From positions 1 through 11,569 of the forward strand of contig JAIRLW010000325.1 of assembly GCA_031259095.1 (NCBI GenBank): a stretch of 11,569 nucleotides of DNA, read 5' to 3'. Both the position numbers and the translations under genes were made by a program. This stretch comes from Planctomycetaceae bacterium (lineage in GTDB: Bacteria > Planctomycetota > Planctomycetia > Pirellulales > Thermoguttaceae). The notes below the pieces were generated by a model. It was not told the origin of the DNA. It ran no database searches and saw nothing but the letters and a program-made list of their open reading frames with translations. Shown here in pieces: positions 1,199 to 10,584 of this stretch. Position 1 is the stretch's first letter; each line of letters starts with the position of its first letter.

Positions 1199-2503
1199 AT
1201 GGCAAAAATAGAAGGATTTCGGGTAAAGAATTTTAAATCTCTAAAAGATGTTACGCTTGGACGGATTATGAATTTGCAGCAAGCCGAACCGCTCACTCCG
1301 CTGATAGTCGTTATCGGTAAAAACGGAGTTGGTAAGAGTTCACTATTTGACGCATTTGGTTTCTTGGCGGATTGTTTGAAAATTGGGGTTGAAGAAGCAT
1401 GCGACGCACGCGGTCGCGGCGGTTTCGAGAAAATTCAATCACAAGGACAAAACAAGCCAATCGAATTTGAAATCTATTACAAAGAAAATACGAAAGCCAG
1501 TCCGATTACGTATGAGTTGTCAATAGGACTTGATAAACTAAGCCGACCTTGTGTTCTCAAAGAACGTCTCAGACAACGCCGAAGCGGACAAAGAAATTAT
1601 GGACGACCGTATTCATTTTTAGTATTGAACAACGGAAAGGGAATTGTATGGAAAGGTGAAACAAAAGGTTTTCAGATTGATGAAACGAAAAAAGATTTTG
1701 ATCTGGCGAGTTGGATTAAAAATCTTAAATCCGGAAGATCCGGAAAAACTAAAGAAGAAACAAAAAATAGCGAGAAAGTCGAGTTGGATGATAATCGTAA
1801 ACTTGGTATTGCTACGTTGGGTTCTCTTAAACAACATCCGCGAATTTCTGCATTTCGCCGTTTTGTTGAGGGTTGGTATTTAAGTTACTTTACGCCTGAT
1901 GCGGCGCGAAGTATGCCGCTTGCCGTACCGCAAAAACATCTTAACATTCACGGCGATAATCTTGGAAATGTTGTGCAGTTCATGGAACGCGAACATCCTA
2001 AACAGTTTCAGAATATTCTGAAACGAATTGCACAAAAAATACCTGGAATAAAAAAAATAGATACAGAAAAAACCAGCGATGGAAGATTACTACTTCGGTT
2101 TAATGACGAAGGTTTTCAAGACCCATTTTATTCCCAACAAATGTCTGATGGAACGCTCAAAATATTCGCTTATTTACTTTTACTTGACGATCCGTCACCG
2201 CCGCCGTTTTTGTGTATTGAAGAGCCGGAAAATGGTTTGTATCATAAATTGTTGGAAACTTTAGCTTCGGAATTTCGAAAACATGCGGAGAAACGTGAAG
2301 ATGGATCGCAAGTTTTTCTCACAACTCACCAACCTTATTTGGTTGACGCATTAGAACCGTTGGAGGTTTGGATACTTGAAAAGGGGCAAGATGGTTTTTC
2401 TGTTGTTAAACGGGCAAGCGAAATACAAATTGTGAAACACTTAGTGGATTCCGGTTTACCTTTGGGCGGATTATGGTACAGCGATTATTTGGATAGGAGA
2501 TAA
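1199..2503 (+). CDS. AAA ATPase of the RecF/OLD-like (AAA_15/AAA_21) type, partner of the adjacent TOPRIM gene
   Basis: This 434-residue protein has the full set of motifs of the ABC/SMC-like AAA ATPases. An N-terminal strand region (FRVKNFKSLKDV, 7-18) leads to a Walker A GKNGVGKS at 40-47. A signature-like SDGTL lies at 316-320, a Walker B FLCIEEPENGL at 337-347 with the catalytic glutamate pair at 341-342, and an H-loop TTHQPY with His377. The middle (about residues 60-300) is the helical insertion typical of OLD-type ATPases; residues 155-200 are very rich in Lys, Glu and Asp. Proteins of this kind bind and hydrolyse ATP to sense a trigger and control a nuclease partner. The next gene starts 4 bases after the stop and encodes a TOPRIM-like protein, which makes a two-gene operon. 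The ATG at 1199 has no clear Shine-Dalgarno sequence, but the N-terminal beta strand begins right after it, so the start is credible. An anti-phage role is inferred from gene pairing and is not shown. Confidence 0.88.
   Translation: MAKIEGFRVKNFKSLKDVTLGRIMNLQQAEPLTPLIVVIGKNGVGKSSLFDAFGFLADCLKIGVEEACDARGRGGFEKIQSQGQNKPIEFEIYYKENTKASPITYELSIGLDKLSRPCVLKERLRQRRSGQRNYGRPYSFLVLNNGKGIVWKGETKGFQIDETKKDFDLASWIKNLKSGRSGKTKEETKNSEKVELDDNRKLGIATLGSLKQHPRISAFRRFVEGWYLSYFTPDAARSMPLAVPQKHLNIHGDNLGNVVQFMEREHPKQFQNILKRIAQKIPGIKKIDTEKTSDGRLLLRFNDEGFQDPFYSQQMSDGTLKIFAYLLLLDDPSPPPFLCIEEPENGLYHKLLETLASEFRKHAEKREDGSQVFLTTHQPYLVDALEPLEVWILEKGQDGFSVVKRASEIQIVKHLVDSGLPLGGLWYSDYLDRR
2495..2500 (+). promoter_or_regulatory. 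Ribosome binding site that fixes the upstream start of the TOPRIM gene
   Basis: AGGAGA lies 7 bases before the ATG at 2508, inside the last codons of the ATPase gene. It supports translation starting at 2508, with coupling to the upstream gene. It argues against the TTG at 2555 as the real start of the TOPRIM protein. Confidence 0.7.
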
Positions 2504-2507
2504 TGTT

Positions 2508-3172
2508 ATGCATTTTGAAATTCTTGTAGAAGACCAATCGGAAAAAAAAAAACGTTGGATATTCTGATTCCAAAAATCATTGGCAATAAACATACATTCA
2601 ATGTTCATCCGTATAAAGGCATTGGACGAATACCAAAAGACCTCAAAGAAAATACAACAGATGCGAATAAACGAATTTTATTGAATCAATTACCGAGATT
2701 GTTACAAGGCATTGGAATAACACATAACCAATACCCTAAAGATTATCGTGCTGCGGTCATCATTATTTGTGACTTGGATGACAAATGTTTGAAAACATTT
2801 CGCGCAGAGTTGGAAGCGATTCTTAATCATTGTGATCCGAAACCGGAAACTCGTTTTTGTATTGCTATTGAGGAAGGCGAAGCGTGGTTTCTTGGCGACA
2901 TTCCGGCAATCAAATCTGCTTATCCGAAAGCGAAAAATACTGTTTTGAATGCATATAAAAATGATTCTATTTGCGGTACTTGGGAATGTTTAGCGAATGC
3001 GGTTTACAAAGGCGGCAGTATTGCGCTTTCTGCGAAAGGATGGCAGGCGGTCGGTTTGGAAAAATCATGTTGGGCGGAAAATATTAGTCCTCACATGAAT
3101 GTTGAGAATAATAAGTCGCCGAGTTTTAATTATTTACGACAAAAATTACAAGAATTATTAGCGTCTTTGTAA
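2508..3172 (+). CDS. DUF4276/TOPRIM-like protein with a frameshift at an A11 run
   Basis: The gene starts at ATG 2508 behind AGGAGA and reads MHFEILVEDQSEKKK. The 11-A run at 2542-2552 then leads to a TGA at 2565-2567. A second frame, open from 2555 to 3172, continues with the rest of the protein. A -1 slip at the A run joins the two into about 221 residues. The joined product looks like the DUF4276 family (TOPRIM fold): the motif-1 Glu is in LVED (Glu8), and a DxD is in IICDLDD (about residues 89-91). Conserved blocks such as KGIGRIPK, TRFCIAIEEGEAWFLGD and SPSFNYLRQKL follow. Glu8 lies upstream of the A run, so a protein begun at 2555 would lack the likely metal-binding Glu. The partner is the ATPase gene 4 bases upstream. 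The break could be a sequencing or assembly error, a phase-variable tract, or a site of transcriptional or ribosomal slippage. Family assignment is from memory of its conserved blocks. Confidence 0.8.
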
Positions 3173-3417: not shown

Positions 3418-3564
3418 ATGACAAAAAAATTATTGTTGATTCTGTTGATGTTGTTTACTGCTGGTTCGCTTCAGGCGCAAACAGTTTCGTTGTCCGCATT
3501 GCTGGACGAAATGGTTGACCGTTATTCCGTAACACAGATTCCTGATCCGGCGTTCTCCAGTTGA
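3418..3564 (+). pseudogene. 5' remnant of a secreted DUF2961-like protein
   Basis: A 48-codon frame starts at ATG 3418 and ends in TGA. It begins with a clear signal peptide: MTKK, then the hydrophobic stretch LLLILLMLF, and a likely cleavage site after SLQAQ. The mature part reads VSLSALLDEMVDRYSVTQIP followed by DPAFSS. This matches, from memory, the start of planctomycete DUF2961 (GH172-type) secreted proteins, where a run LLxEMxDR...PDPAF precedes a TCxQ/SSYDR segment. Here the frame stops right after that block. The rest of the usual several-hundred-residue protein is absent, and the asparagine synthetase gene begins 155 bases later. This suggests a deletion remnant. A real short secreted peptide is possible but less likely. 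Confidence is high for the signal peptide and moderate for the family. Confidence 0.5.
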
Positions 3565-5648: not shown

Positions 5649-6413
5649 TTATTTCCGTTTCCATTGATTTTTTGGTTTGGAAGCAGCATCGATAGCGTCT
5701 CGACAGATGTTAAAAATTCTGCCGGCTGTTACGCCGTACTTTTGGGCAATTTGTTGATATTTTTGTCCGGCTTTTCGTGCTTTAAGAATTTCCGCTTTGG
5801 CATTGGCGTCAATTTTACATTTCCGTGTTGAAAAGTTCGGAAGCGGTAAACTCGGATCGCGTTTACACAACACTTTTATATCGTTTTTGATCCGGTCCTG
5901 AGACATTTTCATTTTTTTGACAATTTCCAGATAGGACAAGCCTGCACGCAATAATTCCGTAACTTTTCGACGGCGTTCAGTGATTTCCGGCGAAGGCTTA
6001 TTGATTGAGCGGAATAACGGCACAGGTCTCTTTGCGGTTTCGTTGTACTGGAAAACCGATTGCCGTACCCATTCGTTAGAGACATTGAACATCGCTCCAA
6101 CCGCTCGCAATGACAATCCGCTACGTCGGGCTTCGGCAATTTCCGCTAAACGGGCTTTTCTTGCCGCTTCCCGAATCTTGCGCTGTTTCAACATAATTTT
6201 TTCCCGCTCGCGTAATTTTTTCAGTCTTTTCTGGTTTCTTGCCGATTTTGCCTCTTTGGTTTTACGGCACGTCCGAATACTGATACCGTAATTTCGCGCT
6301 GTCGCGTAAACTGCGGCAGTCGTTATTCCATACGAATCGGCAATGGAGGCAATAGATTCGCCCATCGAAAACCGTCGTTTCATCTCCTTAATGTCCTTAA
6401 TATTCCAAACCAT
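5649..6413 (-). CDS. Basic protein with four helix-turn-helix units
   Basis: This 254-residue, strongly basic protein contains four related helix-turn-helix units of the resolvase/Hin or sigma-region-4 style. They lie at about 7-44 (SIASIADSYGITTAAVYATA), 88-125 (LSLRAVGAMFNVSNEWVRQS), 146-184 (LSYLEIVKKMKMSQDRIKND) and 204-241 (KYQQIAQKYGVTAGRIFNIC). Each follows the pattern G-x-S/K, two-residue gap, I/V, then V/I-T/S before the recognition helix. A Lys/Arg-rich helical linker fills 48-87. There is no recombinase, ligand-binding or receiver domain, so it is probably a DNA-binding regulator or architectural protein that contacts several sites at once. The start is well supported by AGGAGGA five bases upstream and a good promoter further out. 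It converges with the asparagine synthetase gene. No named family was recognised. Confidence 0.85.
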   Translation of the reverse strand: MVWNIKDIKEMKRRFSMGESIASIADSYGITTAAVYATARNYGISIRTCRKTKEAKSARNQKRLKKLREREKIMLKQRKIREAARKARLAEIAEARRSGLSLRAVGAMFNVSNEWVRQSVFQYNETAKRPVPLFRSINKPSPEITERRRKVTELLRAGLSYLEIVKKMKMSQDRIKNDIKVLCKRDPSLPLPNFSTRKCKIDANAKAEILKARKAGQKYQQIAQKYGVTAGRIFNICRDAIDAASKPKNQWKRK

Positions 6414-10342: not shown

Positions 10343-10584
10343 CATGTTTTAATTGTTGCAACGATAGAAATGTTTGTATTTTTATCCCGTTAGGGACAAC
10401 ATGTTGGTAGAAAAACGATGGCGAGTAAAAACAGGCGTCCCGTAGGGATGCGATGTTGGTTAAAACCGGACGACAACACAAAATTTCACCAACATAACGT
10501 CCCTACGGGACGAGGATCATTTTTTTATTACATTTTTTCTGCCAACATGTCGTCCCTAGCGGGACGGACATGTTAATTGCTGCA
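10343..10584. repeat. Nested cluster of four REP-like palindromes
   Basis: Four related units occur. Unit a (10386-10409) and unit b (10436-10461) face one way. Unit c (10488-10512) and unit d (10541-10566) face the other way. Each combines a short GTCCC/GGGAC hairpin, for example CGTCCCTACGGGACG in c, with an ACCAACAT / ATGTTGGT block. Unit a is nearly the complement of d, and b of c, so the whole region forms one nested imperfect palindrome of about 180 bases. It is framed by similar direct sequences, CATGTTTTAATTGTTGCA at 10343-10360 and CATGTTAATTGCTGCA at 10569-10584. The arrangement resembles REP doublets (REPINs) or a MITE. The gap 10108-10709 holds this cluster; outside it I see only AT-rich sequence with no convincing gene. 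Confidence 0.7.

Follow-up and report, generated by a model that had tools for sequence, protein, structure and literature searches.

We suggest, with a probability of about 0.6, that a real and recent lesion in an A tract has disabled the effector gene of a HEC-01 module in this planctomycete, with a probable leak of full-length product. The window (the whole 11,569-nt stretch analysed here, 41.6% GC) is an entire contig (C327); the draft genome to which it belongs has 3.84 Mb in 653 contigs and is 78% complete with 5.1% contamination. If the reading is right, the window documents the loss of a candidate antivirus effector whose partner ATPase is still intact, by way of a homopolymer that possibly still leaks product. 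The lesion is indicated by the unbroken frame at this site in all of the best-scoring 80 of 387 relatives, a net gain of 2 nt and the loss of a conserved glycine. The features involved, all on the forward strand, are as follows.

1199..2503, + strand: HEC-01A-type AAA ATPase, 434 aa, intact, presumed sensor or partner (from profile matches)
2495..2499, + strand: AGGAG, Shine-Dalgarno-like, 8 nt 5' of ATG2508 (from the sequence)
2508..2567, + strand: 5' fragment of gene B with the native ATG, first strand, conserved Glu8 and the 0-frame TGA at 2565-2567; 19 aa
2542..2552, + strand: A11 tract, which breaks gene B just past the conserved Glu
2546..2552, + strand: A_AAA_AAA, a potentially slippery heptamer of the 0 frame (from the sequence)
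2555..3172, + strand: remaining 205 codons of the gene (HEC-01B/DUF4276, TOPRIM-like), read in the -1 frame and with its conserved blocks retained

The locus is a two-gene ATPase/TOPRIM module of antivirus type. The ATPase matches the PADLOC HEC-01A profile over positions 1-433 (E=1.5e-191), as well as AriA (PADLOC, E=1.9e-42) and AAA_21 (Pfam, E=3e-46), and the ORF at 2555-3172 matches HEC-01B (PADLOC, E=8.8e-87, profile positions 16-211 of 213) and DUF4276 (Pfam, E=1.9e-7). The split gene is thus HEC-01B, directly 3' of an intact HEC-01A ATPase. An ATPase neighbours gene B in all of the best-scoring 80 of 387 relatives (74 full length, 6 cut by a contig end), and the 4 nt between the ATPase stop and ATG2508 are also the commonest spacing, shared by 55 of the 74 loci whose ATPase is complete. 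HEC-01, a candidate defence system in PADLOC-DB that combines an ATPase with a DUF4276 protein, agrees with the window in both proteins and in gene order, and differs in that the effector gene here is split by the A11 tract, so that an unbroken effector frame is absent (TGA 2565). We infer an antivirus role for the module. In the literature searched, HEC-01 occurs together with phage in one paper, as no more than a name in a list of Desulfovibrio piger defence systems (PMC12724379); DUF4276 was not mentioned in the literature searched. Antiviral activity has been shown for several Hma-embedded candidates, HEC-06 included, in the excerpted text of PMC12988326. PARIS (AriA ATPase and AriB TOPRIM tRNase) and the OLD nucleases are among the closest known systems.

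E8, D89 and D91 are invariant across 35 aligned relatives, and the window has LVED before the break and DLDD after it. The preliminary description of a TOPRIM-type gene split behind its conserved Glu is borne out by the HEC-01B/DUF4276 matches and by the LVED 5' of the break. A sequence-profile search of the PDB returned chance matches alone (E of at least 0.55), and Foldseek gave no significant match, which says nothing on the fold either way.

Translation from ATG2508 gives MHFEILVEDQSEKKKRWIF before the TGA at 2565-2567, the A11 tract leading the 0 frame into this stop, while the -1 frame is open through 3172 as a 205-aa ORF from TTG2555. These elements had been described correctly, including the good ribosome-binding site of ATG2508 (the AGGAG 8 nt upstream, with the start position kept in 80 of 80 relatives); only the single-frame length of 221-222 residues needs amending, to 220 or 221 by arithmetic. 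The downstream ORF aligns from HEC-01B position 16, so the first 15 profile positions are the missing part. No other run in the window is as long as A11, and the sole other A/T run of at least 8 is an A8 at 2050-2057. Under a first-order Markov model, 38 of 3000 trials produced an A run of 11 or longer on this strand in 665 nt, and the census of tracts in the genome leads to an expectation of about 0.003 A11.

For comparison at the site we used the best-scoring 80 of 387 relatives, a sample that therefore leans towards intact copies. All 80 have an ATG or GTG 15 codons before the position of TTG2555 and read on in a single unbroken frame, and their A run at the site is 2-7 long, compared with 11 in the window; hence the gene does not natively start at TTG2555, nor is the tract site conserved. 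From the Ser codon to the TTG2555 position there are 14 nt in the window and 12 nt in relatives, a net change of +2 nt. In addition, Gly12, which all 35 aligned relatives share, is replaced in the window, and it is lost whichever frame is read.

An ORF can be drawn from TTG2555, and if gene B natively began there, nothing would be broken; homologues starting at that point would remove the need for any frameshift, as had been pointed out. None of the best-scoring 80 of 387 relatives does so, all of them beginning 15 codons upstream, and we rule this start out as next to impossible. The TTG is preceded by the A tract and has no ribosome-binding site, and its product would be without Glu8, invariant in 35 of 35. 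Judging from a modelled relative, strand 2-7 and part of helix 10-24 would be missing as well.

Other copies were read more widely. The whole-genome loci (L002-L030, n=29) include 21 that match the family start motif, 20 of which stay in one frame over 219-240 codons, the exception being L005 with 68 codons; eight loci (L020-L027) do not match the motif, and L027 among them is nevertheless open. L003 and L004 are apparently identical records to L031 and L032. Protein-level searches of viral, plasmid and phage collections found 2, 2 and 1 relatives, respectively, and gene B is in one frame in the two viral loci; at the DNA level, the plasmid search gave one relative (68.7%). The closest copy among the 21 genus genomes searched has 84% identical DNA. 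The two nearest relatives of gene B are on contigs of the Planctomycetaceae MAGs Roe453_bin113 and Im510_bin130, bins that are presumably of termite-gut origin.

The part of gene B behind the break shows no visible decay, in agreement with the earlier statement that it is free of stops and keeps family-like blocks. There are no stops in its 205 codons, and altered columns number 0 of 53 at a conservation of at least 98%, 1 of 69 at 95% and 3 of 85 at 90%. The single altered 95% column is common to the window and both sisters, and the window's proportion at 90% is similar to that of the sisters (3/77 in L031, 4/79 in L032). None of the eight window-specific residues falls within the 111 columns that are at least 80% conserved (P=0.0016 if residues were placed at random), which limits the unconstrained share of the window branch to roughly 15-21% at most, at the 5% level. 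Compared with the sister branches' own rate of 9/43, this 0/8 is unremarkable (P=0.15), and so gene B simply looks as constrained in the window as in its sisters. In a three-taxon codon model, gene B has w=0.45 on the window branch versus 0.16 elsewhere, a difference that leans weakly towards relaxation and is not significant: neither a shared w (2dlnL 2.5) nor w=1 (2dlnL 0.8) is rejected. NG86 branch estimates of w are noisy. The ATPase has w=0.14 on the window branch, and here w=1 is rejected (2dlnL 28.9). As there is no decay and conserved columns are kept, the frame was constrained until recently or is still constrained; continued expression of the gene would account for the missing decay equally well. 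A long-decayed pseudogene is ruled out by the 205 stop-free codons and the untouched 98% columns.

An error of sequencing or assembly in a homopolymer of a draft MAG, with gene B intact in the organism, would likewise leave the downstream frame free of decay. The fragmentation, incompleteness and contamination of this MAG add to that case. The closest relatives are on k119-named contigs, a naming that we take to be short-read assembly style, and a +2 change in an A11 tract is unusual for short-read assembly. Both the ATPase and the asparagine synthase in the window match their respective families over their full length, and miscounted A's alone would not have changed the Gly codon too. By the criteria used for GeneTack, a frameshifted gene is likely to reflect an indel or an error when no homologous frameshifts cluster with it (PMC3711429, excerpt). 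On balance we consider an error unlikely.

We favour instead a lesion in the organism itself, in which expansion of the A tract at the 5' end of HEC-01B would have shifted the bulk of this lineage's gene out of frame. Translation would then mostly stop after 19 residues, beside an intact ATPase, and the effector would thus be largely or wholly lost. Both RNA polymerase and ribosomes are made to slip by A11 tracts, so that full-length protein, changed at Gly12, is probably still produced as a minority. How large this leak may be can be gauged from other organisms. In Citrobacter rodentium tssM1, an A11 tract gives 20-25% slippage (PMC4256274), and a run of nine A's results in 50% shortened product in Thermus dnaX (PMC1088944); by comparison, the three best V_VV.A_AA.G heptamers shift at only about 0.3% in E. 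coli without stimulators (PMC4066793), figures taken from the excerpted texts. Transcriptional slippage would accordingly seem a likelier leak route than a ribosomal shift at A_AAA_AAA. The tssM1 case resembles the window in having A11 in a broken, otherwise preserved frame; it differs in that measurements there cover both slippage and the requirement for the two products, whereas gene B is known from sequence alone, and in the place of the tract, near codon 800 as opposed to codons 12-15 (PMC4256274). Lineage-specific poly-A indels in undecayed genes are likewise described in the excerpted account of Blochmannia, where genes with poly-A frameshifts gave no sign of faster evolution (PMC3017870). 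That genome is the reduced and extremely AT-rich one of an endosymbiont, unlike the present 3.84 Mb genome with a window of 41.6% GC, and the window gene, unlike the Blochmannia cases, is of defence type (PMC3017870).

The same slippage-prone tract could, alternatively, have been kept for control, with transcriptional slippage or -1 frameshifting yielding a low and safe dose of a toxic nuclease, as the preliminary description proposed. The strong slippage at the tssM1 tract (PMC4256274), the retention of such genes by Blochmannia without detectable decay (PMC3017870), both as far as the excerpts go, and the constraint on the window frame are consistent with this idea. The features of programmed frameshifting are present in part: there is a slippery A_AAA_AAA, but the site is conserved in none of the best-scoring 80 of 387 relatives, and there is no downstream stimulator beyond chance, since RNA downstream of the A11 folds no better than shuffles (z 0.32 and -0.29, pseudoknots left out). 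A conserved programmed frameshift is rejected on these two grounds. The invariant Gly is replaced, and gene B is simply damaged, independently, in two relatives of the family (below). We find dose control doubtful, and this part of the description is not supported.

A built-in switch fares no better. In this alternative, reversible phase variation would toggle the effector among cells through tract length, and a repeat of the hypermutable kind does stand at the frame break, at codons 12-15 and with a conserved frame behind it. Furthermore, the genus has poly-G tracts in or out of frame before DUF1559 genes. The recognised switch-like tracts of this genome are, however, these poly-G tracts and not poly-A, the long tract was seen only here (A2-A7 in the best-scoring 80 of 387 relatives, none above 7), and Gly12 is gone in either frame reading. 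We regard phase variation as improbable. It is also rather unlikely that A11 was recruited at codons 12-15 as an abortive-infection switch, heterogeneous or leaky, that leaves only a minority of cells or transcripts armed. A switching tract at this place would amount to phase variation in a defence effector of TOPRIM type.

The poly-G tracts merit description in their own right. In the window's own genome (G000) there are 34 of at least 9, versus 10 of exactly 8, and tracts of at least 11 occur in 20 of the 21 genus genomes, with up to 109 in one. Among the 28 of 34 examined (L205-L232), 13 precede a prepilin-type GFT-VELL motif, and an upstream ATG is in frame for 5 of them, the other 8 being out of frame; seven of eight chosen ORFs behind poly-G are DUF1559. 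From the sequence, this looks like genuine phase variation, and the matches listed in our literature search include none that joins poly-G phase variation with DUF1559. The tract type and the gene family are different from those of gene B, and the pattern lends some background to phase variation there; it is perhaps the more general finding.

Long A/T tracts are excluded from genes in this genome. It has 32 of at least 11, of which 5 overlap an ORF of at least 80 codons, none of these ORFs being above the Pfam cut-off. The tract in the window is the only one recognised as interrupting a known gene, the other tracts being judged by open frames alone. Two tracts (L132 and L134) are flanked on either side by at least 60 open codons of one and the same strand; for several tracts, an ORF is no more than 40 nt away. 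One contig (L199 987-1061, G000:C502) has T53 and T19 runs by its end, which are probably an assembly artefact.

Gene B is damaged in three of the eight readable ATPase-linked modules of the family, the window included. In G048 (L005 1489-2197, minus strand, G048:C162) it carries a frameshift and a TAG next to an intact 435-aa HEC-01A-like ATPase. In G018 (L171 3074-3371, minus strand, G018:C187) most of it is deleted right behind the ATPase stop, a deletion that abuts a contig end which also cuts the ATPase. Gene B is intact in G016:C452, G017:C67, G017:C305, G062:C438 and G051:C290; the modules of G013 and G020 are truncated at contig ends, and the eight do not include them. The simplest common account of the three damaged modules would be that a costly effector was lost and the ATPase kept, and three damaged effectors out of eight in one family suggest that carriage of the effector is costly.

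A second, intact homologue of gene B is present on another contig of the same genome (L002 1492-2154, minus strand, G000:C623), where the neighbouring ORF upstream does not, by eye, resemble an ATPase. This homologue could relax selection on the window copy.

Elsewhere in the window, a 254-aa protein at 5649-6413 (minus strand) has several helix-turn-helix-like segments and no PADLOC match. A 48-codon ORF at 3418-3564, with a signal-peptide-like start, an abrupt end and no Pfam match, looks from its sequence like the truncated start of a secreted protein. A 38-bp element at 10378-10415, which sits among imperfect repeats, shares 89% identity with DNA that precedes the HEC-01 module of G017.
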